Below, in pieces: positions 1 through 21,065 of a DNA stretch of 64,000 nucleotides. The stretch covers positions 2,152,001 to 2,216,000 of the forward strand of contig NZ_CP043506.1 in the NCBI RefSeq assembly GCF_008365315.1. Direction: 5' to 3'. Numbering within the stretch: the stretch's first letter is position 1; each line of letters opens with the position of its first letter. The notes below the pieces were generated by a model. The model was not told where the DNA came from, did no database searches, and worked only from the letters and a program-made list of their open reading frames with translations. Made by a program: the position numbers and the translations under genes. The stretch is from Acetobacter vaccinii. Its GTDB lineage: Bacteria > Pseudomonadota > Alphaproteobacteria > Acetobacterales > Acetobacteraceae.

Positions 1-645
1 GGGGCGGGTGTGTTCAGCGCTGTCGGGTTGCTGGTGGCTGACTACGAGATGGGCCGGTCGGTGTCCTTACCTTTGCTGCTGAGCGATGATCAGGCCAGTG
101 TGCTGGAAACAGCCTTTTGTGATCTTGAAGCATCTGTTCTGTCTGATATGGCGTGTGATCAGTCTCCAGTCTTATCCCGCTTTGTACAACTGCGTTACAA
201 AGGGCAGGGGTCGGAACTGGGCGTTGCCGTGCCACCGGGGGCCGTTGTGGCACAAACCATGCAGCAACTGGTGCAGGGTTTTGAGGCTGAACATAAACGG
301 AGCTATGGCTACCTTAACGACAATGGCCTGATAGAACTGGTGACTATCCGTGTTGTGGCATCCTTGCCGCCTGCGCGCGCACCTAGGGTAAGCCGGGTTG
401 CAGGCTTGGGAGAGGGTGGGGAGGAAACAACCCGCAACGCCTATTTTGGTGCGGCATCGGGGCTTTTGGAAACACCGGTCATAACCCGCATGATGTTGAC
501 GGACACCCCCCGCCAAGGACCGCTGATTGTGGAGGAATATGAAGGCACGACCGTTGTTCCGCCTGACTGTCAGGCGTGGCGGGACACCCACAACAATATC
601 GTGATTCAGCTTGGGACAGAGGAGCCGCATGATGGCCGAGTATGA
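1..645 (+). CDS. hyuA: Hydantoinase/oxoprolinase A subunit, C-terminal part
   Basis: The reading frame is open at the left edge, so only the last 214 residues are present and the start lies outside the window. The fragment matches the C-terminal part of the HyuA/5-oxoprolinase A family. That family forms the ATP-binding subunit of enzymes that hydrolyse cyclic amides such as N-methylhydantoin or 5-oxoproline together with HyuB. Visible family features are the GY stretch before a long beta-rich segment (around KRSYGYLNDNG) and the terminal GPLIVEEYEGTTVVPP segment, typical of HyuA C-termini. The stop codon lies inside the start of hyuB (14-nt overlap), so the two subunits are translationally coupled. 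Substrate cannot be read from the sequence. Confidence 0.88.
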   Translation, partial: GAGVFSAVGLLVADYEMGRSVSLPLLLSDDQASVLETAFCDLEASVLSDMACDQSPVLSRFVQLRYKGQGSELGVAVPPGAVVAQTMQQLVQGFEAEHKRSYGYLNDNGLIELVTIRVVASLPPARAPRVSRVAGLGEGGEETTRNAYFGAASGLLETPVITRMMLTDTPRQGPLIVEEYEGTTVVPPDCQAWRDTHNNIVIQLGTEEPHDGRV

Positions 646-2377
646 TCTGGCGCTGCTGGAAATCATCAAGAACGGGTTTGAGGCCGTCGCTGATGAAATG
701 GCAATTATCCTTATGCGGACAGCCCATTCCCCGATTGTTCGTGATGCTATGGATTTTTCCACGGCCCTGTGTGACCCGTACGGCCAGAATATTGCCCAGG
801 GCCTGACAACGCCCATGCACCTTGGCAGTTTTTATGATGCCATGCAGCACCTGATCGGGCAGTATGTGGGCGACATTGATGACGGTGATGTTTTTATTGG
901 CAATGACCCGTACATTGCCTCTGGTCAGCATCTGCCGGATATTTATGTCATCAAGCCGATTTTTCACGCGTCGGTTCTGTGCGGCTGGGCTGCGACCATT
1001 GCCCATCATGTTGATGTAGGGGGGCTGGTGCCGGGCAGTAATTCGCTCAGCTCCACCAGTATTCATCAGGAAGGGTTGCGTCTGCCATTCCTCAAACTGT
1101 TGCGTCGGGGCGTGGTGGATACCGCCATTCAGGCTATCATAGCGGCCAATGTACGCACGCCAGACCTGGTGCTGGGGGATATTACGGCCCAGTGCGCTGC
1201 CGTACAGGCAGGTGACAGGGGCTTGCATGATATGCTGCACCGCTATGGGGCTGCACGTCTGGCCAGCTATACGACCGCCCTGCATGACTATGCGGAAAAA
1301 CTCTCCCGCACTGCGATCAGCAACATTGCTGATGGTGTTTATATGTTTGAAGACCATATTGATGGGCTGGGCGATACCGGTGCGCCAATTGTCTTCCGCC
1401 TCCGGCTTGAGGTGGCGGGCGATGAAGTGACAGCAGACTGGACTGGCACATCCGCTCAGGTGGCTGGGGGGATTAATGCCCCGTTGTCCTTTTGCAAATC
1501 CAATGTGTATGCGGCTCTGCGTTCGGTCATGGGGGGGGATGTTCCCAACTGTCATGGCTATACGCGCCCCATTCATGTCGTGGCACCAGAAGGCACTGTG
1601 TTGAACTGCACCTACCCGGCAGCCTGTGGTGGGCGTGGTATAACCGGCTACCGGATTGTGGATTGTGTATTTGGGGCCTTGGCGGCCTGCCTGCCGGATA
1701 ATGTGGCAGCGGATGGGGCAGGGGGTTCCACACTCCCCAGCTTCAGCGGGCGGCAGCAGGGCAAGACCTTTGTGTTCTCAGAATGTGTGATGGGTGTCTG
1801 GGGTGCAACCAGTAGGCATGACGGGCAGGAAGGGGTGCCCCATATGGCATCCAATCAGGCCAATGTGCCGGTGGAGGTGATTGAGGCTGACTATCCTATC
1901 CGGGTTGAGCGTTATGGCATTGCCCCCGATACGGCGGGGCCGGGCCGCAACCGTGGCGGGTTTGGCATTGTCCGCGATTACCGCATTTTGCAGGACGGCG
2001 TGTATTTTGGTGTGCGTTCCGACAAGGTGCGCTTTCCCCCGCATGGTCTGGCTGGGGGTAGGGCAGGGGCTCCTGCCTCCAACATTCTGCTGATAGAGGG
2101 GCAGACCCAGACTTTGCCCGCCATGCCGCTTGACCCGATCATGCTCAACACCGGTGATGTGTACCGTCATGTCATGGCGGGCGGTGGGGGCTACGGCAAC
2201 CCTTATGAGCGTGAGCCGGAACGTGTGCTGGAAGATGTGCTGGATGGCAGAATTACAGTCGCGCACGCGCAGGAAGCCTATGGCGTTATTCTGACGCCGG
2301 ATCGGGCGGTGGATGTTGCAGCCACTCAGGCCCGTAGGGCCACAGTTACGGAGAAAACCGATGCAGATAGCCACTGA
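632..2377 (+). CDS. hyuB: Hydantoinase/oxoprolinase B subunit
   Basis: 581-residue HyuB-family protein, the partner of HyuA in ATP-dependent hydrolysis of hydantoin or oxoproline rings. Family hallmarks are the N-terminal LALLEIIKNGFEAVADEMA helix, the RTAHSPIVRDAMDFS segment, GNDPYIASGQHLPD, and a glycine-rich C-terminus ending in GGGGYGNP. The length is normal for bacterial HyuB. ATG at 632 is preferred over ATG 629 because AGAGGAG sits 7 nt upstream. It overlaps hyuA by 14 nt and the following P450 gene by 17 nt, so the operon is tightly coupled. Whether it acts on N-methylhydantoin, 5-oxoproline or another ring is unknown; the nearby carbamoyl-transfer genes favour a ureide-like compound (inference). 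Confidence 0.9.
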   Translation: MAEYDLALLEIIKNGFEAVADEMAIILMRTAHSPIVRDAMDFSTALCDPYGQNIAQGLTTPMHLGSFYDAMQHLIGQYVGDIDDGDVFIGNDPYIASGQHLPDIYVIKPIFHASVLCGWAATIAHHVDVGGLVPGSNSLSSTSIHQEGLRLPFLKLLRRGVVDTAIQAIIAANVRTPDLVLGDITAQCAAVQAGDRGLHDMLHRYGAARLASYTTALHDYAEKLSRTAISNIADGVYMFEDHIDGLGDTGAPIVFRLRLEVAGDEVTADWTGTSAQVAGGINAPLSFCKSNVYAALRSVMGGDVPNCHGYTRPIHVVAPEGTVLNCTYPAACGGRGITGYRIVDCVFGALAACLPDNVAADGAGGSTLPSFSGRQQGKTFVFSECVMGVWGATSRHDGQEGVPHMASNQANVPVEVIEADYPIRVERYGIAPDTAGPGRNRGGFGIVRDYRILQDGVYFGVRSDKVRFPPHGLAGGRAGAPASNILLIEGQTQTLPAMPLDPIMLNTGDVYRHVMAGGGGYGNPYEREPERVLEDVLDGRITVAHAQEAYGVILTPDRAVDVAATQARRATVTEKTDADSH

Positions 2378-3563: not shown

Positions 3564-3574
3564 GAAAAAGAACC

Positions 3575-4315
3575 ATGGCAACAGTTATTGTCGCAGGGGG
3601 CACAACAGGCATAGGCCGGGCGTGCGTCGGCTTGTTTCGGGCACGGGGTGATAATGTCGTGCTGATCGACCACAGGCCGGAGGCCCAGAGCGTGGCGGAC
3701 AGTGAGGGCAAGGGAGCTTGCGTGTTCCTTCAGCGCGATCTGGCCGACCCCGCAGTGCCGCAGGAGGCCGTGGATCTGGCAGTCTCCCGCTTTGGGGGTG
3801 TGGATACGCTGCTGGTCACGGCGGCTCTCATGCTGTCCTCAGCCCTGGCGGACTGGACGAACGAGATGTGGGACCGCACGGTGGCCCTTAACCTTAAGAT
3901 GCCGTTTTTCTTTGCTCAGGCAGCCGCCCCCTATCTCAAGGCATCTGCTAACCCAAGCATTGTGTTTACATCGTCCACAGGTGCCATCAAAGGTCATGCG
4001 GGCATGTCGGCCTATCAGGCCACCAAGGCCGCTCTGCCGGGGCTTGCACGCAGCCTGACTGCCGAACTCGGCCCAGCGGGGGTGCGGATCAACTGTGTGC
4101 TGCCGGGGTGGATTGAAACACCTTTCAACGACCCGTTCTGGTCCTATCAGCAGGACCCGGCCGAACGGCGGGCTTTGATTGATGCCGAAATTCCCCTGCG
4201 TCGTCATGGCACGCCAGATGAGGTGGCGGCTCTGGTCCTGCTGCTGACATCGGATGCAGGGCGCTATATCGCAGGCACGTCGCTTGTGGTTGATGGTGGT
4301 TATACGGCGGTGTGA
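3575..4315 (+). CDS. SDR family NAD(P)-dependent oxidoreductase
   Basis: 246-residue classical short-chain dehydrogenase/reductase. The N-terminal GGTTGIG is the nucleotide-binding TGxxxGIG motif, the catalytic Tyr147 and Lys151 lie in YQATK, and the preceding SSTG supplies the catalytic Ser. The PG-ET segment (LPGWIETPF) and the GTSLVVDGGYT C-terminus are typical. The start is set by a GGAAAAAG Shine-Dalgarno sequence 11 nt after the P450 stop, placing the gene in the same operon. It probably oxidises an alcohol made by the P450 or by ring opening, but the substrate cannot be inferred. Confidence 0.9.
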   Translation: MATVIVAGGTTGIGRACVGLFRARGDNVVLIDHRPEAQSVADSEGKGACVFLQRDLADPAVPQEAVDLAVSRFGGVDTLLVTAALMLSSALADWTNEMWDRTVALNLKMPFFFAQAAAPYLKASANPSIVFTSSTGAIKGHAGMSAYQATKAALPGLARSLTAELGPAGVRINCVLPGWIETPFNDPFWSYQQDPAERRALIDAEIPLRRHGTPDEVAALVLLLTSDAGRYIAGTSLVVDGGYTAV

Positions 4316-4319
4316 TGGC

Positions 4320-5810
4320 ATGCAGTATTCTCATTGGCAGAGTGCGGACGGATATTCCTCAGCCGTAAGGCCGGTGCTGCCGGGGGTGGATGGGGCTGTG
4401 TGTGCAGCCCACCCGCTTGCCGTGGCCGCAGGGCAGGACATGCTGCTGCGCGGCGGCAGCGCGGTGGATGCCGCAATCGCGGCTCAGGCTGTGCTATGCG
4501 TGGTCATGCCTGATGCCTGCGGCATTGGTGGTGACCTGTTTGCGTTGGTGCGTGATAGTACAGGCACAAGCGCCATTAGTGGCGCAGGGGCTGCTCCGGC
4601 TAAGGGAACAGTGTGTGCGGATGATGGTGCGAACAGCATCACTGTCCCTGGCCTGGCAGGGGCTTGGGCGAGCATGCATGCCCGCTGGGGCACGTTGCCG
4701 TTTGCCGTTATTCTGTCGCGCGCCATTGCACTGGCCGAAGGTGGGATCGAGGTCTCGGCAGCGATGGTGCAGACAGTGCAGGCTCAGTCCAGCCGCCTGC
4801 GTGCCAATGGTGCTGCATCATGGACCTTGCTGGGGCTGACGGCAGGGGAGCGGTTTGTCCAGAAGGAGCTGGCGGCGTTACTGCGCCTGTTCGCCGAGCA
4901 TGGACCGTTGTGTTTTTATGAGGGAGAAGTGGCTGCCCATATAGCCCGTGCCGTAGCTGCCCACGGTGGGGCGTTGGACGAGGCTGATCTGGCCGCCCAT
5001 ATGACCGATGTGGGGCCTGCTCTGGCTGTCGCACTGGGTGATATGACCATGATGGTGCAGCCCCCTCCGACACAGGGTGTGCTGCTGGGGATGGCGCTGC
5101 GTAATTTCAGTGGCCTGTCCCCACACAGTGTGGTGCAGGCGGACCATCTTGCCGTGGAATTGACAGAGGCCGCTTTTGCCTACCGCGACCGGGCTGCGGA
5201 GGGTGCGGCCCTGCTGGATGTTGAACTGGCGGCAAACCCTAATAGTGCGAGCCGTCGGGGTGGGCCGCGCGCCTACCTGCATACGGCAGGTGTGTCGGTG
5301 GCAGACAGGCACGGGCTGGTTGTGTCTTCCCTTGTCAGTGTTTTTGATGATTTCGGGTCCTGCCTGCTGGTACCCGAGCTGGGTATAACCCTGAACAATA
5401 GAGCCGGTGGTTTTACGCAGGGGGCCAATGCCTGGGCACCGGGCAGGCGGCCGGTGCATACTCTGGCCCCGGCTCTGCTGTGTTCCCCCCAAGGCACATT
5501 GGCACTGGCAACACCAGGGGCGGATGGGCAGGTGCAGACCCTGCTGCAACTGGTTATGCGGATGCTGTGCCATGGCGAGGACATTGCAGCAGCCATAGCC
5601 GCCCCACGGTGGCGCAGTCAGGGCGGTAGCCTGTTGATAGAGGAGGGACATCCCTCCCACGCAGGTCTGGCGGCACTGGGGCATGATGTGGTGCCCATGG
5701 CTCCGGGCGCGACCTGCTTTGGGGCTGTGGTCTGTACAGGGATCGGCGCTAATGGTGCCCCCTTTGCTGTTGCCGACTGGCGGCGGACGACATGGGCGGG
5801 TGTCGTGTAA
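4320..5810 (+). CDS. Gamma-glutamyltransferase-like Ntn hydrolase
   Basis: 496-residue member of the gamma-glutamyltranspeptidase family, an N-terminal nucleophile hydrolase that normally cleaves itself in front of a Thr. The large-subunit start (AGQDMLLRGGSAVDAAIAAQ) and the GIGGDLF segment are present. The presumed small subunit begins at Thr322 in HTAGVSVAD. In classical enzymes the motif is TT-x-SV; here the second Thr is Ala. The C-terminal LNNR and a PHTLAP-like segment (RPVHTLAPALL) are also family features. No secretion signal is seen, so it may be cytoplasmic. It starts 4 nt after the SDR stop and is the last gene of the hyuA-hyuB-P450-SDR operon, followed by a terminator. In this setting it may cleave an amide of the pathway substrate, and glutathione cleavage need not be its role. 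Confidence 0.83.
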   Translation: MQYSHWQSADGYSSAVRPVLPGVDGAVCAAHPLAVAAGQDMLLRGGSAVDAAIAAQAVLCVVMPDACGIGGDLFALVRDSTGTSAISGAGAAPAKGTVCADDGANSITVPGLAGAWASMHARWGTLPFAVILSRAIALAEGGIEVSAAMVQTVQAQSSRLRANGAASWTLLGLTAGERFVQKELAALLRLFAEHGPLCFYEGEVAAHIARAVAAHGGALDEADLAAHMTDVGPALAVALGDMTMMVQPPPTQGVLLGMALRNFSGLSPHSVVQADHLAVELTEAAFAYRDRAAEGAALLDVELAANPNSASRRGGPRAYLHTAGVSVADRHGLVVSSLVSVFDDFGSCLLVPELGITLNNRAGGFTQGANAWAPGRRPVHTLAPALLCSPQGTLALATPGADGQVQTLLQLVMRMLCHGEDIAAAIAAPRWRSQGGSLLIEEGHPSHAGLAALGHDVVPMAPGATCFGAVVCTGIGANGAPFAVADWRRTTWAGVV

Positions 5811-5873
5811 GAACCGTATTGCCACTTTTGGGATGGACAATCCACCAATGGGTTACAGTTTTGCATTCTACAA

Positions 5874-5896
5874 CAGAGGCTTTTTTGAAGCCTCTG
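5874..5896. terminator. Rho-independent terminator between the hyu operon and kch
   Basis: Perfect 9-bp stem (CAGAGGCTT / AAGCCTCTG) with a 5-nt loop. T-rich sequence follows on the plus strand (GATTTTAATT), and the minus strand has A/T-rich flanks, so it can serve both converging genes. Confidence 0.8.
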
Positions 5897-5900
5897 GATT

Positions 5901-7067
5901 TTAATTATTGGAAGATGTTTTGCTGAAAAATGATTCAAGAACATCATTATTGATAGAATCGCCATTTAAGGTTCTTACAATAATTTCACAGCACAATTGT
6001 TCAAGTGACAAAATACCATCCGGGTGAGTGCCTTTTATTTTGGTGATGTTTTGACTTTTATTGGCAAGAGATATTATTTTTGTGCTTTCATCTGCAATTT
6101 CTTTGGCTGCAAGAATATTAAACGCATTGTCTGCATCACTTTCCATGAGTGTCACAACGTATTTTGCTTTATCTGCACCGGCTGCCTTTAAGGTAACTGC
6201 TGAAGAAGGGTCACCTTCAATAACATCCATGTTTTCCGGGAAGAGATTTTTGGAGCCAGGAGGGCATATAACAGTGATAATGGTCCCATTGGTAAATAAT
6301 ACCTGGCACACATTTTGCGTTAAAGAGGATGACCCAATAATGATATAGTGATTATTGCGTGTCACGTGTGCAAACCCTCCATGTAGAATGCGACTAATGT
6401 TGTTTCTGATCAGTGAGCCAGCTATTGATGCGACTGACGCTGCAAAAATAGTGATTCCGAAAATGATGACTGTAATGGTGAATATGCGAGCAAAAGATGT
6501 ATGGGGAACAATATCGCCAAATCCCACAGTAGACATACAAACAATAACGAAATAGAAAGCATCTGGCAAACTTTCTATTTTGGGTGTGAACTGGTCTCCA
6601 AGATAAAGAGACCCAAGTATTCCGTAAAAAATAAGTGAAATAATACTTGCTGTGGCGAGTATACTTGTGCTTCCAATGTTGCTTTTTGAAAAAACTTTCC
6701 AGTAAAAAATAAGAGATGAGAGTGTGATGAATTGGTAAAAAGAATTGATATAGGCATGATTAGAAATAAAAATATTCAAAAAAATCATGGATGATAGTAG
6801 TATTATTGAAAATATCCATGATATGCGCGTTCGCATGAGAATAACGCAAGACATTAATAAAATCAGAAAACCAATCATAAAACTTGGTATTTCCAACACA
6901 CCAAGAAAAATGATAACTTCCTGCCATGACTGAAAATTGTATATTTTTTGAGGAAGATCAAATATTAGTTTCTTCATAAATGGGTTGATAATTATAAACC
7001 CATTGTGAGCCATCATGAGAGCAATGCCATAAACAGCAATTTTGTTTTCAGAAGGTAATTTTCTCAT
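5901..7067 (-). CDS. kch: Potassium channel protein with RCK/TrkA-N domain (Kch-like)
   Basis: 388-residue inner-membrane K+ channel subunit resembling E. coli Kch. Several hydrophobic helices occupy residues 10-125, followed by a pore module with selectivity filter TVGFGD (residues 180-185). A C-terminal TrkA-N/RCK domain starts near residue 240 (HYIIIG). Segments such as IESLPDAFYF, SARIFTITVIIFGIT, ESDADNAFNILAAK and RTLNG close to the C-terminus line up with E. coli Kch. Base composition is strikingly AT-rich, with many ATT, AAA and TTT codons, unlike the GC-rich genes on both sides, which suggests recent transfer. It has no functional link to the catabolic genes it separates. Its start is followed upstream by an AT-rich promoter region. 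Confidence 0.9.
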   Translation of the reverse strand: MRKLPSENKIAVYGIALMMAHNGFIIINPFMKKLIFDLPQKIYNFQSWQEVIIFLGVLEIPSFMIGFLILLMSCVILMRTRISWIFSIILLSSMIFLNIFISNHAYINSFYQFITLSSLIFYWKVFSKSNIGSTSILATASIISLIFYGILGSLYLGDQFTPKIESLPDAFYFVIVCMSTVGFGDIVPHTSFARIFTITVIIFGITIFAASVASIAGSLIRNNISRILHGGFAHVTRNNHYIIIGSSSLTQNVCQVLFTNGTIITVICPPGSKNLFPENMDVIEGDPSSAVTLKAAGADKAKYVVTLMESDADNAFNILAAKEIADESTKIISLANKSQNITKIKGTHPDGILSLEQLCCEIIVRTLNGDSINNDVLESFFSKTSSNN

Positions 7068-8874: not shown

Positions 8875-8875
8875 G

Positions 8876-10138
8876 TCATGCCTGTCCTTCCAGGGTTTGG
8901 GCAAAGGCGCGCAGGGCTTTTTCAAAACAGGCCAGCGGGGCATGGACTTCCCCCGCACCGATCAACCCGCCTTCCTTATGGGTAATGGCGGTGTCCAGCA
9001 GGGGGGTAATGCCGGTTTGCACAACTTTGCGAATATCGATCCCAAGCGGGCCGGGGGCAAAGTCCATGGCCGGGATACGCACATCGGGGTTGGTGGCGTG
9101 GCAGATGGACAGCATGTCCTGCGTATTGGCAATGGCCTGCTGCATGGTGGCCTGCACATACTGGGTTACGGTAGGGGCAGCGGGTTGAATAAAGCCACCC
9201 AGACCAATGGTTTCCGTAATGGCGCTGTCGCCCAGGTCGGGTGCAGCGTTGGAATCATTCCACTCCGCCCGGAAAAACAACCCCCGGACAGGGTTGGCTT
9301 TGGCAATAAACCACTGATCTCCCAGACCGCTGACCTTGATGCCAAAGTCCACCCCATTACGTGCCATGGCGGTGACGATGGTGCTATATTCAATCCCTTC
9401 CGCAGGCACCAGCATGGACTTGGCAGCGGCCATAATGGCGTGCAGGAAGAAATGCTCTGATTCAACAAGGAACTTTATGGAGTCGCGAACATCCTGCGCG
9501 GGCATATCCACCGCCATCAGGTGCCCATAGAGCTCTTTGAGGAACTGCGCCGTCGCGGCAATGGAGCGGTTATGGCACTCATCCCCCATTTCCACCGCGC
9601 GCGAGATGATGTTGCGGATATCAATAGGTCCAGATGCCCGTAGCGCCTGTTTCAGCACCGGGGCAAACACCTTTGCCTGCCATGTCAGGTTTTTAAAGAC
9701 TGTCTCGTCATAGGCTCCCCATTTTAACAGGCGCAGCCCGCCACCTTCGGAAATGCAGCTATAGGCCCGATTGCCAAATGCGGCGTTTTCAACCACCAGC
9801 ATGGGGGTGGAGGCTGATGTAATGCCAGCCCCGGCCCCCACAGCCATATGGTGGTGGCAGGGTGCGGTCAGGATTTCGCCAGAGCGGAGTTTCCGTTCAG
9901 CGTCTTCCGGAGTGCTGGCCAGACCTTCCCACAGGGCAGCGCCAATAATGCCGTGCTTGTGTGGGCCGCACATATCGTCCCAGGCGATGGCCGGGGCGGA
10001 GTGCAGGATAAGGTTGGGCAGCATGCCCGGCAGCACATCAAGAGCCGGGGCGACATCAATCAGTTGTGGCTTGCCCTGGCGGATAATATCAACCGTGCGG
10101 GTATTGGCGGCCTCTATACGGTCTTTGAGAGTGGACAT
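8876..10138 (-). CDS. DUF1116 family protein, YlbE/AllG-like (copy B)
   Basis: 420-residue paralogue of the next gene downstream, with the same blocks (DVLPGM, WDDMCGP, GITSASTPM, AVEMGDECHNRS, EGIEYSTIVTAMARNGVDFGIKVSGLG, TETIGLGGF). By eye roughly half of the residues are identical between the two copies, so they are old duplicates and both look intact. ATG 10138 is preceded by CCGGAGAAC. It follows the 58-residue ORF by 14 nt. The family is known from the E. coli AllFGH oxamate carbamoyltransferase (YlbE = AllG). Two adjacent copies suggest a hetero-oligomer with two distinct DUF1116 subunits (inference). Confidence 0.87.
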   Translation of the reverse strand: MSTLKDRIEAANTRTVDIIRQGKPQLIDVAPALDVLPGMLPNLILHSAPAIAWDDMCGPHKHGIIGAALWEGLASTPEDAERKLRSGEILTAPCHHHMAVGAGAGITSASTPMLVVENAAFGNRAYSCISEGGGLRLLKWGAYDETVFKNLTWQAKVFAPVLKQALRASGPIDIRNIISRAVEMGDECHNRSIAATAQFLKELYGHLMAVDMPAQDVRDSIKFLVESEHFFLHAIMAAAKSMLVPAEGIEYSTIVTAMARNGVDFGIKVSGLGDQWFIAKANPVRGLFFRAEWNDSNAAPDLGDSAITETIGLGGFIQPAAPTVTQYVQATMQQAIANTQDMLSICHATNPDVRIPAMDFAPGPLGIDIRKVVQTGITPLLDTAITHKEGGLIGAGEVHAPLACFEKALRAFAQTLEGQA

Positions 10139-10152
10139 GGGTTGTTCTCCGG

Positions 10153-10329
10153 TCAGATCAGGGCGTCAAGCAGGTTCAGCAGGTCGTCATCCTGCGGCGG
10201 AGGGGGCTTCCACAGCACTTGCACAACGGGCACGGACTGTTGCCTGAGTGTTTGGGCAAAAAGGTCTATGCCGATATTCACCACGCAGGGGGGCTGGCCT
10301 GCCAGCAGGGGGTTGCCAGTGTCAGTCAT
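10153..10329 (-). CDS. 58-residue protein associated with FdrA/DUF1116
   Basis: Short ORF found by reading the gap between fdrA and the DUF1116 genes. Its ATG overlaps the fdrA stop by 8 nt and its stop lies 14 nt before the next start, so it fits the operon exactly. The protein has a compact pattern: VVNIGIDLFAQTLRQQ, then VPVVQVLWKPPPPQDDDL, then LLNLLDAL. It resembles the short N-terminal module (VxNVGLxxFxxxLxxQGxxVxxVxWxPP) that I recall at the front of some FdrA or DUF1116 proteins, here standing alone. I infer a small accessory or linker subunit of the carbamoyl-transfer complex. No function is established. Confidence 0.72.
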   Translation of the reverse strand: MTDTGNPLLAGQPPCVVNIGIDLFAQTLRQQSVPVVQVLWKPPPPQDDDLLNLLDALI

Positions 10330-11863
10330 GGAGCATCCTCAGGTAACGGCCGGCCAGTGTCACGGCCTCGGCATTGTTGCGGGCAACCAGAATGTCCGCC
10401 GCACGCAGGGTTGCAGCTTGCAGGGCGTAGTTCTGGGGGTCGGCACGGGTGCCGCATATTGTAACAATGACAGGCAGGTGCCTGCCCTGCGCGGCTGCAA
10501 TGGCGCGGGCCTGTGTGACGGTTTCTGCCAGCAGGGCGGCAGGATTTTCATGCGCGCCATATCCCAGCACAAGGTCGATCAGCAGCAGGGCGACCTGCGG
10601 GTCCTGCGCCTCTTTAAGAATGCGCTGGTTGCGGAGTAGCGGGTCGATCATCGGGTGGGCGCGGCTTTCTGTGTAGGCGTCGTCTCCCAGGTCGATGACG
10701 GTGTGTTCCCTGCTGCTAAACGGGTCGGGCAGGGCGTAGGCGTTGTGGTGCAGGTTGGAGTAAACATCCCCAACCACGTCATGCAGCAGGAACAGGGCCT
10801 CGTAACACAAGGTACCCCCGGCATAGAGACCGCGCAGGTAACGCTGCTGCGGGGTACGCTTGCTGAGGCTGGTCTGGAGGAAGTCTTCCTGCTCAACCGT
10901 GCTCAGGGCGGGTAGCGGCACGCTGACACCCAGAGCCTGTGCGGCGGCCTGCGCGGTTTCTGCCAATGTGCGTGTGCGCTTCAGCGCCCCGTGTTCGTCA
11001 GTGCTGTCCTGGCCGATAAAGTTGACAATGACGGGTTTTGCAATGGCAGCACAGGCTGCCAGAACCTTGTCCGCGACCTCCGGGCTGGGGGGTTTGGAGG
11101 TGACAACAATAACATCGGTCCCGTCATCCTGTGCCAGCAGATCCAGCCCCTGCAGCATGCACAGGCCACCAATGTCCTGCTTGAGGTCACGTCCGCCGGT
11201 ACCAATAGCCTGGCTGACACCAAGCCCCAGCCAGTCCAGCAGGGATGAAATTTCCTGCGTGCCGGTGCCTGACGCCGCAACAATACCCACCCGGCCACGC
11301 GCAACGGCATTGGCAAAACCAATGCCGACACCATTGATAATGGCCGTCCCGCAGTCCGGCCCCATGAGCAGGCGGTTTTTGGCTGCGGCCAGCTCCTTCA
11401 GGCTGCGTTCGTGCTCAAGGCTGACATTGTCGCTGAACAGAAAAACATTCAGCCCGAGTTCCAGCGCTCTTTTTGCTTCCCGAAAAGCATAGGCTCCGGG
11501 CACCGAAATACAGGCTAGATTAGCCTGTGGCTGCATGGCGACAGCCGCATCGAGCGAGCGGGGCTGGAGAGCACCCTGGGCACTCTGGGGTTTTTGCGCC
11601 AGAAGCTGCTCGGCGGTGCCCAGCGCGTGCTCGGCTTGGGCATCGGTCTCAGCAACGATGGCGATGATGAGGTCATCAGGATTTGCCGTGCTGGCCTCGG
11701 GCGTTAACAGGCCCGACGTGGCAAGGATTTTGCGGTTGTTGGCAGTTGCCATCATGGCAATGGCTTCTGTCACACCCTCTTCATGGCGGAGCGCTTCGGA
11801 AACACGCATGAGCCTGACAGAGTCATGATATTCCCGTTGCCGGATGATAAGTCTGGATGCCAT
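10322..11863 (-). CDS. fdrA: FdrA family protein (AllF-like, acyl-CoA synthetase fold)
   Basis: 513 residues, normal FdrA length. The N-terminal half has the succinyl-CoA-synthetase-like CoA-binding fold (ISVPGAYAFREAKRALELGLNV, FSDNVSLEHE, LMGPDCGTAIINGVGIGFAN) and GIVAASGTGTQEISSLL. In E. coli FdrA (AllF) together with YlbE and YlbF forms oxamate carbamoyltransferase, whose product carbamoyl phosphate feeds carbamate kinase. Here the gene starts 3 nt after the solute-binding protein gene and overlaps the small ORF downstream, so it is the core of the minus-strand operon. Lack of any allantoin-pathway gene in the window argues that the physiological substrate differs from E. coli. Confidence 0.9.
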   Translation of the reverse strand: MASRLIIRQREYHDSVRLMRVSEALRHEEGVTEAIAMMATANNRKILATSGLLTPEASTANPDDLIIAIVAETDAQAEHALGTAEQLLAQKPQSAQGALQPRSLDAAVAMQPQANLACISVPGAYAFREAKRALELGLNVFLFSDNVSLEHERSLKELAAAKNRLLMGPDCGTAIINGVGIGFANAVARGRVGIVAASGTGTQEISSLLDWLGLGVSQAIGTGGRDLKQDIGGLCMLQGLDLLAQDDGTDVIVVTSKPPSPEVADKVLAACAAIAKPVIVNFIGQDSTDEHGALKRTRTLAETAQAAAQALGVSVPLPALSTVEQEDFLQTSLSKRTPQQRYLRGLYAGGTLCYEALFLLHDVVGDVYSNLHHNAYALPDPFSSREHTVIDLGDDAYTESRAHPMIDPLLRNQRILKEAQDPQVALLLIDLVLGYGAHENPAALLAETVTQARAIAAAQGRHLPVIVTICGTRADPQNYALQAATLRAADILVARNNAEAVTLAGRYLRMLHD

Positions 11864-11866
11864 GGC

Positions 11867-13399
11867 TCAGGCCTCGTCCTGCTGGAATGTGATGTCATGG
11901 AAAAGGGGGTAAGCCCCAATAGCGTCAAAGCGCAGGCCGCCAATTGTGTCGCGGGCGGCAACAAGGGTTGCATTGCAGTGCAGGGGCACAGCCAATGCAG
12001 CACGCATGATGTCCATTTGCACGGTAGCAAAATGCGGGACAAATTCTGCCGGGGTCAGGCAGGTTTCTGCCGCGTCAATTTGCGTATCAATGGTAGGGTA
12101 GTCCTGCGGGCCACGTTTGCTCCAGCCATAGGACCCAGGTCCACTTTTGCGGGAGTGATATACAAACCCCAGAAGTTGTGAGGAACTGGCGTATTTTCCC
12201 TGTGGGATCAGGTTGTGCAGCCCCTGCATGCCCGCCTGAATCCATTGTGGCGGGCTACAGAGTTCAACATCCACAGCAATACCGACCAGCGCCAGTTGGC
12301 GTGCGACAATGGCTCCAAACTGCGGGTAAAAATTGACTGGCAGGGCATAGAATGTCACCCGCAAGGCCTCACCATCACGCTCGCGGATACCATCGGGGCC
12401 GGGCATCCAGCCTTCCTGCTCCAGTAGTGTGGCGGCTTTTGTCGGGCTGTGGGGATACATGTTTTCCACGCCGGGTTCATAACCCAGAGTAAACTGTGAG
12501 ACCGGGCCGTAAGCCCGTGTGAACTCACCGCGAAACACTTCCTGCACAAGGGCATCCACATCCAGCGCGTGGCTGATGGCCTGCCGTACAGCCAGGCTGC
12601 TGGTGGGGCTACGTTTGATGTTCATCATCAGGGACACCGGCACACCACGGATTGGCCATGTGGTAACAGCCAGCCCAGCCGTAGCCCGCAGGGTTTGGGC
12701 ATCCGCCGGGTTGGCGGCAAGGATCATGTCCACGCTGCCATCCAGTAAGGCTGCGGTGCGCGCATTATCATCGGGTAGAAATTTGAACAGGATTTCATCC
12801 ACCAAAGGCGGACCTGCATTGTCCACCACAGGCGGTGCCCATGCATAAGCCTCGTTACGGCGGATGATCAGGCAGTCGCCTTTATTCCAGCGCACAAAGC
12901 GGAAGGGGCCGGTGCCAACGGGGTGGGTTATAAAGGTGCTGCCAGCACTGGTGGCGCAGGTGGGGGCAACCGGGGCAAGCCAACCTTGGCTGAGGGCATC
13001 CAGCAGCAGGGCGTAGGGGCTGTCCAGAATGATTTCCAGACAATGCTCGTCCACCGCACGGCTTTCGCGATAGCTGCCCAGCAGGCCACCTGCAAGCTGG
13101 GACTTGTTTTGCGGGTCGCGGGCGCGGTCGAGTGATATTTTCATGGCATGGGCGGTAAAGGGGGTGCCATCATGAAACACCACATCTTTACGAAGGTGGA
13201 ACGTATAGCGCAGATGATCGTCTGAAATGCTGAAAGTTTCTGCCAGTCCAGGCAGATATGCGCCATCAGCGGTCTTGTTCACCAATGTATCAAAAACGCC
13301 ATTGGTCATCTGCAACGCCAGTTCGGCGGCACCCAGATGAGGGTCCACATTGGAAGGTTCGTAGTGGACACCTATGCGGAGCTGTTTGGTTGCACCCAT
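11867..13399 (-). CDS. ABC-type solute-binding protein, family 5 (oligopeptide/nickel type)
   Basis: 510 residues of the DppA/OppA superfamily: early blocks LRIGVHYEPSNVDPHLG, YTFHLRKDVVFHDGTPFTA, HPVGTGPFRFVRW and RQAISHALD are characteristic. The ATG at 13399 follows AAGAGGCC; a longer in-frame start at 13465 exists. With neither start is a Sec or Tat signal peptide visible, although such proteins normally work in the periplasm. No permease or ATPase genes are in the window. The gene is the first of the operon with fdrA and the DUF1116 pair (3-nt gap to fdrA), so it may bind the pathway substrate. Cytoplasmic function, a missed start, or another export route are open. Confidence 0.82.
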   Translation of the reverse strand: MGATKQLRIGVHYEPSNVDPHLGAAELALQMTNGVFDTLVNKTADGAYLPGLAETFSISDDHLRYTFHLRKDVVFHDGTPFTAHAMKISLDRARDPQNKSQLAGGLLGSYRESRAVDEHCLEIILDSPYALLLDALSQGWLAPVAPTCATSAGSTFITHPVGTGPFRFVRWNKGDCLIIRRNEAYAWAPPVVDNAGPPLVDEILFKFLPDDNARTAALLDGSVDMILAANPADAQTLRATAGLAVTTWPIRGVPVSLMMNIKRSPTSSLAVRQAISHALDVDALVQEVFRGEFTRAYGPVSQFTLGYEPGVENMYPHSPTKAATLLEQEGWMPGPDGIRERDGEALRVTFYALPVNFYPQFGAIVARQLALVGIAVDVELCSPPQWIQAGMQGLHNLIPQGKYASSSQLLGFVYHSRKSGPGSYGWSKRGPQDYPTIDTQIDAAETCLTPAEFVPHFATVQMDIMRAALAVPLHCNATLVAARDTIGGLRFDAIGAYPLFHDITFQQDEA

Positions 13400-13426
13400 T
13401 CCGGCCTCTTGGTTTTTATTGTGAAC

Positions 13427-13438
13427 ATATGTGCGTAT
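13427..13438. promoter_or_regulatory. Candidate operator in the promoter of the fdrA operon
   Basis: Near-palindrome ATATG-TG-CGTAT, 28 nt upstream of the solute-binding-protein start. On the minus strand it lies between a TTGCTA (-35-like) and a CAATAA (-10-like) element. It shares the ATGTGC core and TG centre with the perfect 12-mer at 14665 and 26952, so it may be bound by the same regulator. Confidence 0.35.
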
Positions 13439-13554
13439 TAGCAACAAATGAACGCGCAAATGCAAGGGCGAAATTACACGCAGCCCTTTACCCTCGTGCT
13501 GTCAGCAGAGGAGGGTAATTAGTAATACATTGAAAATAATATGGATTTTTGTTT

Positions 13555-13584
13555 TTGGCAGGCGGTCCAAAACCCGCCTGCCAA
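13555..13584. repeat. Perfect 11-bp hairpin downstream of the IclR gene
   Basis: TTGGCAGGCGG / CCGCCTGCCAA with an 8-nt loop. It lies between the end of the IclR gene and the start of the solute-binding-protein gene, both on the minus strand. It could terminate IclR transcription, but the T run is on the wrong side for that (TTTTTG precedes it on the plus strand). Confidence 0.5.
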
Positions 13585-13627
13585 CGCTACGTCGTGCGCG
13601 GTAACCTTTGGCAGCCGTGTCAGGCTG

Positions 13628-14437
13628 TCAGATCAGTGTGTGTTGGATGTCCTGGGCAGCGGCCAGCATTTCTGGCAGCACATCGTCCATCAGTTTTTCT
13701 ACAGGCACAATGCTGCTGAACGTAAAGGTATTGAAGCTGGCAACAATGCGGTTACGGACATCAAAAATAGGCACAGCGAGCGAACGTACGCCAAGCTGCA
13801 TTTCCTGATCTACAATGGCATAGCCCTGTTTGCGTATGGCCCGCAGTTCCCGCCGCAGGTCTTCCATACTGGTTATGCTGTGGTCGGAAAGAGGCTCCAG
13901 AGTAATTTGCTTGAGCAGGCTGTCGCGTTCGGGCTTTTCCATCATGGCCAGAATGCAGCGCCCGGCAGAGGCATAGGCAATGGGGAAGCGACGGCCAATG
14001 GTGAGAGCAGGAAAGCTGAACTCATCAGTATTGGCCGAGGCAATATGCACAATATCCAGCCCGTCACGAATGCCCAGAGCCATGGGAAAACCACAGTGGT
14101 CGCGCACTTTATCCAGATAATACTGGGCCTTGTCCGCCAATGGGACAGAGGACAGGTAAGCATACCCCAGTTCCATAACCTTGGGCGTGAGCTGGAACAG
14201 CCGCCCGTCTTGCGACACAAAGCCCAGGTGCACCAGTGTCAGCAGGTAACGCCGCGCCCCGGCCCGGTCCATGCCGGTTTTTTCCGAAACCTGGGACAGG
14301 GTCATGCGCGGGTTGGCACGCCCAAAGGCCATAATAATGTTCAGGCCATAGGACAGGGAGCCTACAAAGGTTTTGGGCTTATCCTGAATGTCTGGTTCGC
14401 AAGTGCTTGCTGGCATGTCCATGCTCTTAAAAATCAC
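13628..14437 (-). CDS. IclR family transcriptional regulator
   Basis: 269 residues with the two IclR domains. The N-terminal winged helix-turn-helix spans about residues 25-85 (SLSYGLNIIMAFGRANPRMTLSQVSEKTGMDRAGARRYLLTL), and the C-terminal effector-binding domain follows (PAYASAGRCILA-like block GRRFPIAYASAGRCILAMM). The N-terminal spacing resembles the PcaR/PobR branch, which senses aromatic acids, but that is only suggestive. ATG 14437 is the longest start; 14422 and 14416 are alternatives. It lies upstream of the fdrA operon and divergently from carbamate kinase, so it is the natural regulator of both. No other regulator gene is present in the cluster. Confidence 0.9.
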   Translation of the reverse strand: MIFKSMDMPASTCEPDIQDKPKTFVGSLSYGLNIIMAFGRANPRMTLSQVSEKTGMDRAGARRYLLTLVHLGFVSQDGRLFQLTPKVMELGYAYLSSVPLADKAQYYLDKVRDHCGFPMALGIRDGLDIVHIASANTDEFSFPALTIGRRFPIAYASAGRCILAMMEKPERDSLLKQITLEPLSDHSITSMEDLRRELRAIRKQGYAIVDQEMQLGVRSLAVPIFDVRNRIVASFNTFTFSSIVPVEKLMDDVLPEMLAAAQDIQHTLI

Positions 14438-14649
14438 ATTAGGGGGTGGGTATAAGCCAAGACAGTGGGCGCTTCCATGATCTGGAGCATGCTAAACATG
14501 GATGGGTGCTATTCGAATTGCAAATTTGTGATGTCTGATACGGACAGAAAATTTTGCAGAATGTTCACAACAAGCCCTTTTCTTCACAATGCACACAGAG
14601 TCCGGGGTGGGTTGCAGCCTGATTTTTGGGAATGAGCTTCAGCATAAAG

Positions 14650-14680
14650 TTGTTTAATGCGAACTAATGTGCATTATATG
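14650..14680 (+). promoter_or_regulatory. Promoter with overlapping palindromic operator for carbamate kinase
   Basis: TTGTTT (14650-14655) and ATTATA (14673-14678) form a plausible -35/-10 pair with 17-bp spacing. Across the -10 lies the near-palindrome TAATG-TG-CATTA (14665-14676). The same 12-mer occurs in the TonB-receptor promoter at 26952-26963. A protein bound here would block the promoter; the divergent IclR gene is the obvious candidate. Another GTGCATT half (as AATGCAC) is at 14588-14594 nearer the IclR gene. Confidence 0.45.
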
Positions 14681-14726
14681 AACTTATTGCCGGTCATGGC
14701 ATCACGCATGCAGGAAAGTCATAGTC

Positions 14727-15650
14727 ATGAAACTGGTGATCGCACTGGGGGGCAACGCCCTGATGCAGCGGAACGAACCGCTTGGCATGGATGTGCAGTG
14801 GAAAAATGCACGGGTTGCAGCGGGCGCACTGGCCGCTGTCGCGCGGCAGCACCAACTTATTCTAACCCATGGCAACGGCCCGCAAGTGGGGCTTCTGGCT
14901 ATGCAGGCGGAGGCTTTTAAAGGCGCGGAACCTTACCCCTTTGATGTCATGGGCGCAGCAACGGAAGGGATGATCGGGTATATTCTGGAGCAGGAACTCG
15001 GCAATATCCTGGGGTATGATGTGCCCGTGGCTACATTGCTGACACGGGTGGAAGTTGATGCCAACGACCCGGAATTTACCGATCCCAGCAAGTTCATAGG
15101 TCCAACTTTCGAGCGCGAGCAGATCGATGCGCTTATTGCTGAATATGGTTGGACCTTCCGGCAGGATGGCAGGAAATGGCGGCGGGTCATCGCCTCTCCG
15201 CAGCCACGGCGTATTTTGTGGCACCGGCCTATCCGCTGGCTGCTGGACAACGGGGCTGTTGTTATCTGTGCCGGGGGCGGGGGTATTCCGGTCGCCACAC
15301 AGGATGGCCAGAGGATGGAAGGGGTGGAAGCGGTGATTGATAAAGACCGGGCTTCCAGCCTTCTGGCCGTTCAGATTCCAGCAGATCTGTTTATTATTGC
15401 AACCGATGTTGCCGGTGTTTTTGAGCATTATGACACACCACAACAGCGCCTGCTTCGTCGGGTGACCCCTGCGGAACTGATGGCAGAACAGTTTGCGAAA
15501 GGTTCCATGGGCCCCAAAATAGAGGCAGCCAGCCGCTTTGTGCGCCAGACAGGCAAGCCAGCGGCAATTGGCTCCCTTGCTGAAATTACGGATATTGTTG
15601 CCGGCAAAGCTGGGACCTGGATTGTTCCAGAAGGTGATGCACCTGCATGA
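14727..15650 (+). CDS. arcC: Carbamate kinase
   Basis: 307 residues, the usual length. It converts carbamoyl phosphate plus ADP to ATP, ammonia and CO2 in the cytoplasm. Family markers are the start VIALGGNALMQR, the THGNGPQVGLLAMQ block, AAGTEGMIGY-like GAATEGMIGYILEQEL, VICAGGGGIPV and the DKDRASSLLA segment, followed by GSMGPKIEAASRF. ATG 14727 is the only start that gives the canonical N-terminus. The stop overlaps the next start (ATGA), so it is coupled to the DUF2877 gene. In this cluster it would recover energy from carbamoyl phosphate released by the FdrA/DUF1116/DUF2877 complex; no arginine deiminase genes are present. Confidence 0.95.
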   Translation: MKLVIALGGNALMQRNEPLGMDVQWKNARVAAGALAAVARQHQLILTHGNGPQVGLLAMQAEAFKGAEPYPFDVMGAATEGMIGYILEQELGNILGYDVPVATLLTRVEVDANDPEFTDPSKFIGPTFEREQIDALIAEYGWTFRQDGRKWRRVIASPQPRRILWHRPIRWLLDNGAVVICAGGGGIPVATQDGQRMEGVEAVIDKDRASSLLAVQIPADLFIIATDVAGVFEHYDTPQQRLLRRVTPAELMAEQFAKGSMGPKIEAASRFVRQTGKPAAIGSLAEITDIVAGKAGTWIVPEGDAPA

Positions 15651-16504
15651 CAGGCATACGGGTGCGCAGGGTAGGGGCGTTTATCGCGCCTGCCGTGGCT
15701 CATGCTGCTGGTCCTGTGCGTGTTCTGGCGGTGTTTCCGCGCCACCTGTACATTATCTTCAGGGTTGGGGATGAGGATGTTACAGCGATTATATGCGCGC
15801 CAACGGAGCAGGATGGCCCGTTGTGTATTGTGCTGGAACAATGGCCAGACTGGACTGGCCTGCACGGGCAATATGGGTTTTTTCAGAATGGAATCCTGAA
15901 GCTTGGTTTATACAATATTATTTTTCAGGATTTTTGTATTTTCCCCTCTGCTGTGCCCATAGCTGAGGGCAAGGTTTTACGTAGTCAGAGTGAACTGATC
16001 GAAATTGCGCAAACCATTCAGCATGGGTCAGAATTTCTTTCATCTGTTCTGGTCGGAAAAAACCTGTCTTTCATAAAAGATGATGATGTTCTCATGCTGG
16101 AGACGGGGTTGCGGGAAAACAATGCAAGCCTGTTACAAAGCAGCGCTACGGCCTTGGCTGGGGTGGGCATGGGGCTGACCCCAGCGGGCGATGACTTTTT
16201 GTGTGGTGTCATGCTGGCAGCCTGGTTTTACATGCCAGAGGCCAGAGCGCTCTGTGCTCCCTTACGGCATGGGGCGCTGGGGATGACAACAACTCTATCC
16301 TACGCTTTTTTGGATTCAGCCGCCGCAGGTCATGCTTCTGCGGTGTGGTGTGCATTTCTTGATGCTCTTAAAACATCTGATCATGCTTCATCCCTTTATA
16401 AACACATGGTTGCCGTCGTGGCACATGGCGCAACATCCGGGGCGGATGCGTTGGCCGGATTTTTGTGGGCGGCGGGGATTATGCAGACGGAAAGCAGCAG
16501 ATAA
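15647..16504 (+). CDS. DUF2877 family protein, YlbF/AllH-like
   Basis: 285 residues with the DUF2877 signature GVGMGLTPAGDDFLCGVM near residue 178 and the C-terminal helix around HGATSGADALAGFLWA. E. coli YlbF (AllH) is the third subunit of oxamate carbamoyltransferase with FdrA and YlbE. It overlaps carbamate kinase by 4 nt and so is translated with it. In this genome the three complex genes are split over two divergent operons facing the same IclR control region. Residues 85-150 have lower GC and more Phe and Ile than the rest, though the frame is intact. Confidence 0.85.
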   Translation: MTGIRVRRVGAFIAPAVAHAAGPVRVLAVFPRHLYIIFRVGDEDVTAIICAPTEQDGPLCIVLEQWPDWTGLHGQYGFFQNGILKLGLYNIIFQDFCIFPSAVPIAEGKVLRSQSELIEIAQTIQHGSEFLSSVLVGKNLSFIKDDDVLMLETGLRENNASLLQSSATALAGVGMGLTPAGDDFLCGVMLAAWFYMPEARALCAPLRHGALGMTTTLSYAFLDSAAAGHASAVWCAFLDALKTSDHASSLYKHMVAVVAHGATSGADALAGFLWAAGIMQTESSR

Positions 16505-16593
16505 GCCCCTGTTTTTCGAATTGTAGCGGGCAGGTGCATATTTTTGTTTTCAACAGGCAAGAAGATGCGTTAGAAAAACAAAAGTTTCTTGAA

Positions 16594-16614
16594 CGAAACG
16601 TTCGGTATTCGAAC
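16594..16614. promoter_or_regulatory. Overlapping inverted repeats upstream of the GlcG/HbpS-like gene
   Basis: CGAA-ACG-TTCG (16594-16604) and GTTCG-GTATT-CGAAC (16600-16614) overlap each other 22 nt before the start codon. TTCG/CGAA half sites are of the kind bound by many dimeric regulators; no regulator can be named. Confidence 0.4.
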
Positions 16615-16635
16615 AAACGACAAAGAGAACCAAAA

Positions 16636-17037
16636 ATGACTCTTGCCCTTCTTGAGGCACAACAGGCCCTCGCAGCAGCTTTGCAAAAGGCTGAGGCACT
16701 GGGCATTGCCGTGTGTGTCAGTGTTTGTGATGCGGGGGGGCGTCTTGTTGTCTTTGGCCGCATGGACCAGTCAAACTGGGCCAGTATTTATGGCAGTCAG
16801 GGTAAGGCATTGACCGCTGCGGCCACCCGCTGCAGGAGCGGTGCCATCCCGCCAGAGTCTGTCGTTATGAACAGAATTTCGGAACTTGAGGGAAATAACA
16901 TGATTTATTCAAAGGGAGGTGTCCCTTTGGTGCGTCATGGTATTCTGCTGGGCGCTGTGGGTGTCGGTGGGGCCAGCGCAGAACTGGACGAGACCTGCGC
17001 GTTAGCCGCAGCACAAGCCCTGTCGTGTGATGAATAA
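16636..17037 (+). CDS. Heme-binding/GlcG-HbpS family protein
   Basis: 133-residue GlcG/HbpS (PduO C-terminal-like) domain protein. Features include ALQKAEALGIAVCVSVCDAGGRLVVFGRMD, then GKALTAAATRC, a GG-PL segment (SKGGVPLVRHGILLGAVGVGG) and GASAELDETCALAAAQAL, the usual ending. Members occur in catabolic clusters such as glycolate or propanediol use, and some bind heme; the molecular role here is unknown. ATG 16636 follows AAAGAGAAC. No signal peptide is present with this start. It lies downstream of the DUF2877 gene with a 131-nt gap holding its own inverted repeats, so it may have separate control. Confidence 0.85.
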   Translation: MTLALLEAQQALAAALQKAEALGIAVCVSVCDAGGRLVVFGRMDQSNWASIYGSQGKALTAAATRCRSGAIPPESVVMNRISELEGNNMIYSKGGVPLVRHGILLGAVGVGGASAELDETCALAAAQALSCDE

Positions 17038-20987: not shown

Positions 20988-21065
20988 TGCAGGCGGTATC
21001 CTTATAAAAATGACAGGATGAAAAAGGAGGAGCACGGGCAGGTCAAACCCTGCCCGCAAACGTGG

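Follow-up and report, generated by a model that had tools for sequence, protein, structure and literature searches.

A conserved Acetobacter island linking a hydantoinase/P450 operon to a divergent FdrA-AllG module

At one end of a 64,000-nucleotide stretch of Acetobacter DNA (the window), genes for a HyuA/HyuB-type hydrolase and a cytochrome P450 lie next to genes for FdrA, AllG, AllH and carbamate kinase. Do the two halves serve one pathway, and for what compound? An earlier note had proposed that they do, and profile searches found every gene that it named. The two halves are parts of one island of about 34 kb. The best explanation, to which we give a probability of roughly 45%, is that the whole island serves the catabolism of one compound that contains nitrogen and is probably aromatic or heteroaromatic, and that would be degraded via an oxalurate-like intermediate.

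Extent and Inheritance of the Island

AllG is present in 4 of the 49 Acetobacter genomes searched, and orthologues of hyuB and the P450 gene occur in the same four and in no others. Identities there are at least 79% for hyuB and at least 83% for the P450, against at most 37% and 29% for the remaining Acetobacter matches. Gene order of nearly the whole set is kept, with exceptions, across the four islands, which is more than chance would produce. The island core is found again, rearranged, in Mesobacterium pallidum, a member of another order, where the two halves are once more linked. The earlier note would have yielded to halves that never co-occur elsewhere; they do co-occur, and the four Acetobacter islands together with Mesobacterium rule out a chance neighbourhood. 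These observations support inheritance of the two halves as one unit.

The unit is larger than the region first described, because genes upstream of the window (locus L003) belong to it. One strand carries an amidohydrolase, a LIP-type lipase, an IclR regulator, a glutamine synthetase-like (GS-like) protein and a Rieske oxygenase; the other carries a ferredoxin reductase, a TonB receptor, a carboxylesterase, an MFS transporter and an MR/MLE enzyme.

Between the two halves lies a K+ channel gene with a TrkA_N domain (5901..7067, minus strand; PF07885/PF02254). Its GC content is 0.35 and nothing matches it in the corresponding regions of the three other Acetobacter genomes; it is a low-GC local insert and was ruled out as a member of the system. 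An unrelated gene separates the convergent operons in two of the four Acetobacter islands, as might be expected if two pathways merely travelled together, one an operon for an aromatic amine or a lactam, the other a standard module for oxalurate/oxamate. We consider this unlikely; the linkage outlasts rearrangement between orders.

The Carbamoyl Module

FdrA is spread over two minus-strand open reading frames. The main piece, fdrA or allF (10322..11863), scores 479.5 bits against NF004760, above the NCBIfam cut-off of 433. The C-terminus is carried separately by fdrA-C (10153..10329), a 58-residue product that matches model positions 510-554 of 555; it is thus the end of a split FdrA, and its candidacy as a new small protein was rejected. 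The ATG of fdrA-C overlaps the fdrA stop codon in all four Acetobacter islands. Using a rough profile on 76 loci that have fdrA, the C-terminal part was fused in 29, a separate small reading frame in 11 and not found in 36; the group of 11 includes A. papayae and Mesobacterium.

Two DUF1116 genes follow on the same strand, allG1 (8876..10138; PF06545, 267 bits) and allG2 (7618..8874; PF06545, 240 bits). Their products form sister clades, G1 and G2 (SH-aLRT 98 and 99; joint clade 99). Judged by a near-invariant-column criterion of our own, AllG1 and AllG2 do not keep all residues that are near-invariant in other AllG: 16-19 of 84 such columns are substituted in the 12 tandem-type sequences relative to single AllG, a count to be read with the greater overall divergence of the tandem type. 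Leave-one-out treatment of 80 other AllG, namely the loci nearest AllG1 plus E. coli and genome G047, gave a maximum of 11 substituted columns, a next value of 7 and a median of 0.

On the plus strand are carbamate kinase (arcC/allK, 14727..15650) and allH (DUF2877, 15647..16504; PF11392, 77.5 bits). The kinase exceeds the cut-offs of NF009008 (438.9 bits; cut-off 361) and TIGR00746 (370.3; cut-off 358.25) and falls below that of NF006926 (361.7; cut-off 416). AllH is poorly conserved (30-48% identity), a point against the single-island reading. The HbpS/GlcG-like gene (PF03928) ends at 17037 on the same strand; its reading frame opens at 16465, and a start at about 16636 was inferred from Mesobacterium. 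Two further genes of this half are on the minus strand. One encodes a peptide/nickel-type solute-binding protein (11867..13465; SBP_bac_5 profile; 56-84% identity in other genomes). The other encodes an IclR regulator (13628..14437) for which the nearest model is that of PcaR/PcaU/PobR (TIGR02431, 248 bits, below the cut-off of 284.75); a plus-strand reading frame that overlies it (13541-14455) is without a Pfam match.

FdrA, AllG and AllH genes occur together at the locus, as they do for oxamic transcarbamylase (AllFGH). That enzyme lacked a known gene until 2024, according to PMC11326118, which also gives experimental evidence for AllFGH chemistry in E. coli and describes the carbamoyl-phosphate route of FdrA/AllG/AllH and carbamate kinase. 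The E. coli route to ATP cited in the earlier note agrees with this text. Linkage of FdrA, AllG, AllH and carbamate kinase is common to the island and to E. coli allFGHK (fdrA, ylbE, ylbF and ybcF). In contrast to E. coli, the island has FdrA over two reading frames, two AllG paralogues rather than one, two divergent operons and hyuAB, P450 and GGT-like neighbours, with no allantoin gene among the genes identified; AllG is 44% and FdrA 39% identical to the E. coli proteins. In nitrifiers, allFGHK genes beside biuret/triuret genes (PMC12625717) similarly tie AllFGH and carbamate kinase to a further pathway for organic nitrogen in which the upstream purine genes are absent, but the partner enzymes differ.

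Carbamoyl phosphorolysis with ATP recovery by the island complex is plausible. The substituted AllG columns, together with weak matches of FdrA to succinyl-CoA ligase alpha models, could instead mean that FdrA, AllG1, AllG2 and AllH transfer another acyl group, through acyl-phosphate or CoA chemistry, and that carbamate kinase serves something else. This is distinctly improbable, given that the carbamate kinase gene has stayed next to that of FdrA or AllH, with identities of 76-89% in the genus, 67% in Mesobacterium and 57% in a Proteobacteria metagenome-assembled genome (MAG).

The Predicted Ring-opening Operon

The hyuA gene starts about 1.47 kb upstream of the window (L003:15534-17645), so that only its 3' part, encoding the C-terminal part of HyuA (Hydant_A_C), lies within it (1..645, plus strand). 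It is followed on that strand by hyuB (611..2377; hydantoinase B/oxoprolinase family, PF02538, 543 bits), with orthologues of 79-93% identity in the other three Acetobacter islands and 64% in Mesobacterium. Both subunits match, at family level, the ATP-dependent hydrolases that include N-methylhydantoinase, 5-oxoprolinase and caprolactamase CapAB. The nearest NCBIfam models of HyuA and HyuB are those of caprolactamase; unlike CapAB, the pair falls far short of both curated equivalog cut-offs (516.7 and 263.3 bits; 1000 each). Since these are nevertheless the nearest models, a lactam is as possible a substrate as a hydantoin.

The best PDB match of HyuA is an N-methylhydantoinase (465 bits). 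It accords with the pathway first suggested for the locus, in which the P450 oxidizes an N-alkyl hydantoin or cyclic ureide, HyuAB yields an N-carbamoyl amino acid and FdrA/AllG/AllH move the carbamoyl group to phosphate. The linkage in four Acetobacter islands and Mesobacterium fits that scheme equally, but the P450 (2361..3563, plus strand) speaks against it. The reading frame of this gene opens at 2313, and its start was inferred from where orthologues begin to align. The protein scores 379 bits against PDB 2fr7, which we take to be CYP199A2, with identity at 178 of 387 columns (46%). Residues R44, R94, S97, F185, F188, S247 and S250 of 2fr7 are identical in the island P450, and F301 is Leu; these eight are presumably the CYP199A2 residues that anchor an aromatic carboxylate. 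CYP199A2 and CYP199A4 are aromatic-acid P450s. The island protein thus resembles them in sequence and in these anchors, but differs at Phe301 and in having its gene within a hyuAB operon. The P450 announced in the earlier note is present, whereas its oxidation of a ureide is doubtful. Because the P450 looks aromatic-acid specific, a hydantoin-parabanate-oxalurate sequence is retained only as a sub-version of the single-island reading. An aromatic carboxylate, to which the anchors point, is hard to fit into a simple ureide pathway, and this counts against the single-island reading as well.

An SDR oxidoreductase (3575..4315; PF13561) and a GGT-family Ntn hydrolase (4320..5810; PF01019, 290 bits) complete the operon on the plus strand; the reading frame of the latter opens at 4254 and its start was inferred. 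The nucleophile Thr (HT) is aligned in 6/6. For the small-subunit part, the best PDB match is 5hft_B (67.6 bits; runner-up 54.1), with DGQxQT common to both, whereas in full-length comparison 2i3o_A (143 bits), 2nlz_A, 4y23_A and 2e0w_A outscore either single 5hft chain. The structure table names 5hft only as a gamma-glutamyltranspeptidase; we take it to be HpxW. HpxW converts oxamate to oxalate and ammonium (PMC5270733). Its small-subunit similarity makes the GGT-like protein a candidate amidohydrolase of the oxamate type.

Putative Aromatic-degradation Genes Upstream

The GS-like protein is 49-62% identical to relatives on four plasmids: Delftia pLME1, Novosphingobium resinovorum SA1 pSA3, Cupriavidus pinatubonensis p2 and Methylobacterium nodulans pMNOD01. 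On all four, its gene adjoins that of a Rieske alpha subunit or is one gene away; in Acetobacter, in contrast to those clusters, the pair sits within a larger island. GS-like/Rieske pairs degrade arylamines, and this pair, outside the region covered by the earlier note, points to an aromatic amine. The predicted structure of the GS-like protein, from a four-sequence model, has a mean pLDDT of 33.6, too low to be of use.

In the MR/MLE enzyme, QIK replaces KxK and IYLAK replaces KxxK in 5 of 5 orthologues, the G029 gene being taken as two pieces. We assume that these lysines are the catalytic positions of enolase-superfamily racemases and epimerases. With two of the three missing, the enzyme is unlikely to be a racemase, and that role was set aside.

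These upstream genes weigh further against hydantoin oxidation followed by N-carbamoyl amino acid formation, which leaves the GS-like/Rieske pair unexplained and might have used a racemase. What stands of the ureide proposal is carbamoyl phosphorolysis with ATP recovery, and what speaks against it is the CYP199A-like P450, the GS-like/Rieske pair and the oxamate-type GGT-like candidate. As a whole, it is rather improbable.

The amidohydrolase matches 8-oxoguanine and guanine deaminases weakly, below all cut-offs. Combined with a CYP199A-like P450, a GS-like/Rieske pair of the arylamine type and the M20 peptidase that the cluster of Mesobacterium contains, it is suggestive of folate or pteroate breakdown: the P450 would N-dealkylate pteroate, p-aminobenzoate would pass to the GS-like/Rieske pair, and a deaminase-type amidohydrolase would open the pterin ring with HyuAB. 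The scheme is pure inference from family roles; no pterin-specific enzyme was identified among the island genes, the amidohydrolase is below its thresholds, and the M20 gene was seen in Mesobacterium only, the one cluster searched for it. We regard it as very remote.

The Carbamoyl Module in Other Lineages

In a third lineage, the Proteobacteria MAG SB0676_bin_28, an AllG1-AllG2 pair is accompanied by genes of the GGT-like, Rieske, GS-like, GlcG-like and LigAB types; a second contig carries FdrA, FdrA-C, SBP5, carbamate kinase and AllH. Neither hyuAB, P450, MR/MLE nor SDR genes were found on the two contigs read, and P450s of this MAG are distant only (at most 34%). The carbamoyl part can therefore exist without these four, which agrees with two pathways travelling together, as does the finding that most AllG loci among the best 80 of 581 lack such catabolic neighbours; many loci are short, and absence here means within the flank. 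Against that separation, AllG copies abut in only three of these 80 loci and all three bear part of the catabolic set. A GGT-like match lies near AllG in only 2 of the 77 others, which counts against the single-island reading. A contig scan with a single FdrA query gave no match.

Proposed Pathway

For the single island, we infer the reactions and their order as follows. Oxygenation by the P450 and SDR would prepare the ring. HyuA and HyuB would then spend ATP on the hydrolysis of a cyclic ureide or amide, and ring opening would lead to a carbamoyl compound resembling oxalurate. An oxamic transcarbamylase of divergent type, probably composed of split FdrA, an AllG1-AllG2 heteromer and AllH, would pass the carbamoyl group to phosphate, and carbamate kinase would use the carbamoyl phosphate to form ATP. 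The GGT-like hydrolase may then take ammonia off the leftover oxamate-like amide, and the peptide-type binding protein may share in uptake. The MR/MLE enzyme is left without a step in this scheme, which speaks against it.

It is possible, and we propose it tentatively, that this is an undescribed aerobic pathway, in which HyuAB opening of an aromatic or heteroaromatic ureide or amide is coupled to heteromeric AllG1-AllG2 phosphorolysis of new specificity and the ATP spent is repaid via carbamate kinase. The AllG pair and split FdrA, with a ring-opening operon in two orders and aromatic-degradation genes in a third lineage, suggest an oxamic transcarbamylase class reaching beyond allantoin. The gene set is bounded, and tests of growth and induction could identify its substrate.

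Plasmid-borne Relatives

Relatives of AllG, P450 and HyuB appear in 193, 1226 and 910 plasmid records, respectively, all below 60% identity. No hyuAB is annotated in the stretch read around the nearest plasmid P450 (51.7%), and no AllG near close HyuB relatives on three plasmids, in plasmid annotation that is incomplete. On those three plasmids, HyuB is accompanied by transporters and variously by an FAD oxidoreductase, a DSD1-type enzyme and an alanine racemase.

Co-occurrence and layout of the two halves

The hyuA-hyuB-P450-SDR-GGT-like operon and the adjoining part with AllG (DUF1116), FdrA, carbamate kinase and AllH (DUF2877) are the two halves of one inherited system. Among 49 Acetobacter genomes (37 + 12), AllG occurs in four, the window's own (G000) and those designated G014, G029 (Acetobacter papayae) and G072, each with two adjacent copies. 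HyuB has matches in 18 of the 49 and the P450 in 7, and those of at least 79% and 83%, respectively, are confined to the same four genomes; the others reach at most 37% and 29%. The earlier note would have counted a lack of co-occurrence in other genomes against its pathway; the halves do co-occur, in the other three of these Acetobacter genomes and in a cluster of Mesobacterium pallidum (Roseobacteraceae). The Acetobacter counts ignore kinship, and because the four genomes may be close relatives with linked genes, the four co-occurrences are not independent events.

In wider scans, AllG was found in 7 of 299 genomes of the family and 37 of 385 of the class, with adjacent copies in the window's own genome only, and in 17 of 394 genomes of Mesobacterium's family, with an adjacent pair in Mesobacterium only. 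The P450 has matches in 136 of the 299, at most 50% outside the window's genome among the matches listed.

The window (C1:2152001-2216000) lies in a genome of 3.08 Mb, and a profile search recovered all the genes that had been listed from its sequence. The 58-aa ORF is also present and is identified as the C-terminus of FdrA (fdrA-C); in all four Acetobacter islands the start codon (ATG) of this piece overlaps the stop codon of fdrA. A lactonase-like gene (L003:2-718) stands at the left edge, in the upstream stretch L003. Amidohydrolase, LIP, IclR, GS-like and Rieske genes share a strand in L003; on the opposite strand, ferredoxin reductase, TonB receptor, carboxylesterase, MFS, MR/MLE, hyuA, hyuB, P450, SDR and GGT-like genes run from L003 into the window, hyuA starting upstream of it. 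Convergent to these lie allG2, allG1, fdrA-C, fdrA, SBP5 (an SBP_bac_5 solute-binding protein) and a second IclR gene, after which carbamate kinase, allH and a GlcG-like gene diverge. Outside the island, the window's aldo/keto reductase (19968-21059) and luciferase-like monooxygenase (21069-22169) genes were unmatched in the other regions read.

The junction between the halves varies. In the window's genome they are separated by a low-GC insert at 5811-7617 that carries a K+ channel gene (GC 0.40 for the insert and 0.35 for the channel gene, versus 0.63 and 0.59 for the adjoining genes). G072 has a different gene here, judged from its sequence to encode a metallophosphoesterase. In G014 and G029 there are 76 and 95 bases, respectively, between the ends of the two operons' protein matches.

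Gene order in the other three islands is that of the window's genome, with reservations for the upstream IclR and AllH. The upstream IclR has a match in place in G029 alone (78%); for G014 and G072 the best hit, at 36%, either coincides with the second IclR gene or was lost to filtering. AllH in both falls under the 45% filter of the gene-order comparison, at 35% in G014, where it sits between carbamate kinase and GlcG, and 30% in the G072 region. Overall AllH (15647-16504) is 30-48% conserved, far less than AllG or the adjoining carbamate kinase. DNA similarity to the lactonase-like gene lies just past the amidohydrolase in all three. The flank past GlcG matches G029 at 79% over 1954 bases and is unmatched in the G014 and G072 stretches read, suggesting that the island may have another location in both. 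In the A. papayae draft (loci L014, L015 and L048), amidohydrolase, MFS, MR/MLE, hyuA, hyuB, P450, SDR, fdrA and allH match as separate pieces, reflecting either sequencing error or decay.

The AllG pair and its other carriers

In a 92-sequence tree, built by a quick method with SH-aLRT support and without bootstrap, AllG1 and AllG2 each form one clade of 6 rows (98 and 99) within a joint clade of 12 (99). The pair thus predates the split of its carrier lineages or was transferred as a pair. At 84 columns, each conserved in at least 97% of 80 non-tandem sequences, the tandem proteins depart at 16-19; leave-one-out departures of the 80 have a maximum of 11, a next value of 7 and a median of 0. 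General divergence may account for some of these departures, as mean identity of tandem to other AllG is 42-46%, against a median average of 56% among the others.

Of 581 AllG relatives in a contig scan, the best 80 were examined as loci. Three have abutting pairs: A. papayae, Mesobacterium pallidum and the Proteobacteria MAG SB0676_bin_28. HyuA and HyuB matches occur only at the first two of these 80, and GGT-like matches of 30-34% at the MAG and at L104 and L116, both without abutting pairs. L116, from Bradyrhizobium acaciae, has AllG at 10001-11230 and a second, divergent AllG at 15732-16967, about 4.5 kb apart. Relatives of AllG with less than 60% identity are also carried by 193 records of a plasmid collection, and 140 of these records are predicted to be conjugative.

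The Mesobacterium cluster carries GGT-like, SDR, P450, hyuB, hyuA and MR/MLE genes (52-64%) on one strand, then an M20 peptidase gene, and SBP5, fdrA, fdrA-C, allG1 and allG2 (62-78%) with two oligopeptide-transporter ATPases on the other. It continues with IclR, carbamate kinase, AllH, an amidohydrolase (29%), permeases, a second SBP, a GlcG-like gene (66%) and an esterase. The GS-like/Rieske pair is on a separate contig (49% each); TonB, carboxylesterase, MFS, LIP and ferredoxin reductase were unmatched within the cluster. One contig of the MAG holds allG1, allG2, GlcG-like, GS-like, aldehyde dehydrogenase, Rieske, LigA, LigB, cyclase/arylformamidase-like and GGT-like genes, and a second holds SBP5 (56%), fdrA (52%), fdrA-C, carbamate kinase, an aminotransferase, a TonB receptor, AllH and a peptide-type transporter; hyuAB, P450, MR/MLE, SDR and IclR were unmatched on these two contigs.

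Proposed route and candidate enzymes

According to PMC11326118, E. coli AllFGH converts oxalurate to carbamoyl phosphate and oxamate, the latter a dead end in that organism; the words 'hydantoin' and 'HpxW' are absent from its main text. HpxW converts oxamate to oxalate and ammonium, as cited in PMC5270733, and in nitrifiers allFGHK adjoins biuret genes, according to PMC12625717. The most economical route that we infer has four steps: oxygenation and ring opening would give an oxalurate-like compound, a modified AllFGH would carry out carbamoyl phosphorolysis, ATP would then be regained, and the GGT-like enzyme would take off the leftover amide.

Several enzymes of the island have structural matches. 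The P450 aligns with PDB 2fr7, CYP199A2, at 379 bits (178/387 identical), and keeps most of the residues that bind the carboxylate there. For the GGT-like protein, 5hft_B is the best small-chain match; searched whole, it has 2i3o_A on top (143 bits), while the two 5hft chains, scored separately, reach 87 (5hft_A) and 65 (5hft_B). The Rieske protein best matches 9ina, a Rieske-domain protein, and 7fhr, a putative phthalate 4,5-dioxygenase. The structure nearest to the GS-like protein is 8wwu (461 bits), and in four plasmids read its homologue either adjoins the gene for a Rieske alpha subunit or is separated from it by a single gene. The motifs QIK and IYLAK are present in all five MR/MLE orthologues.
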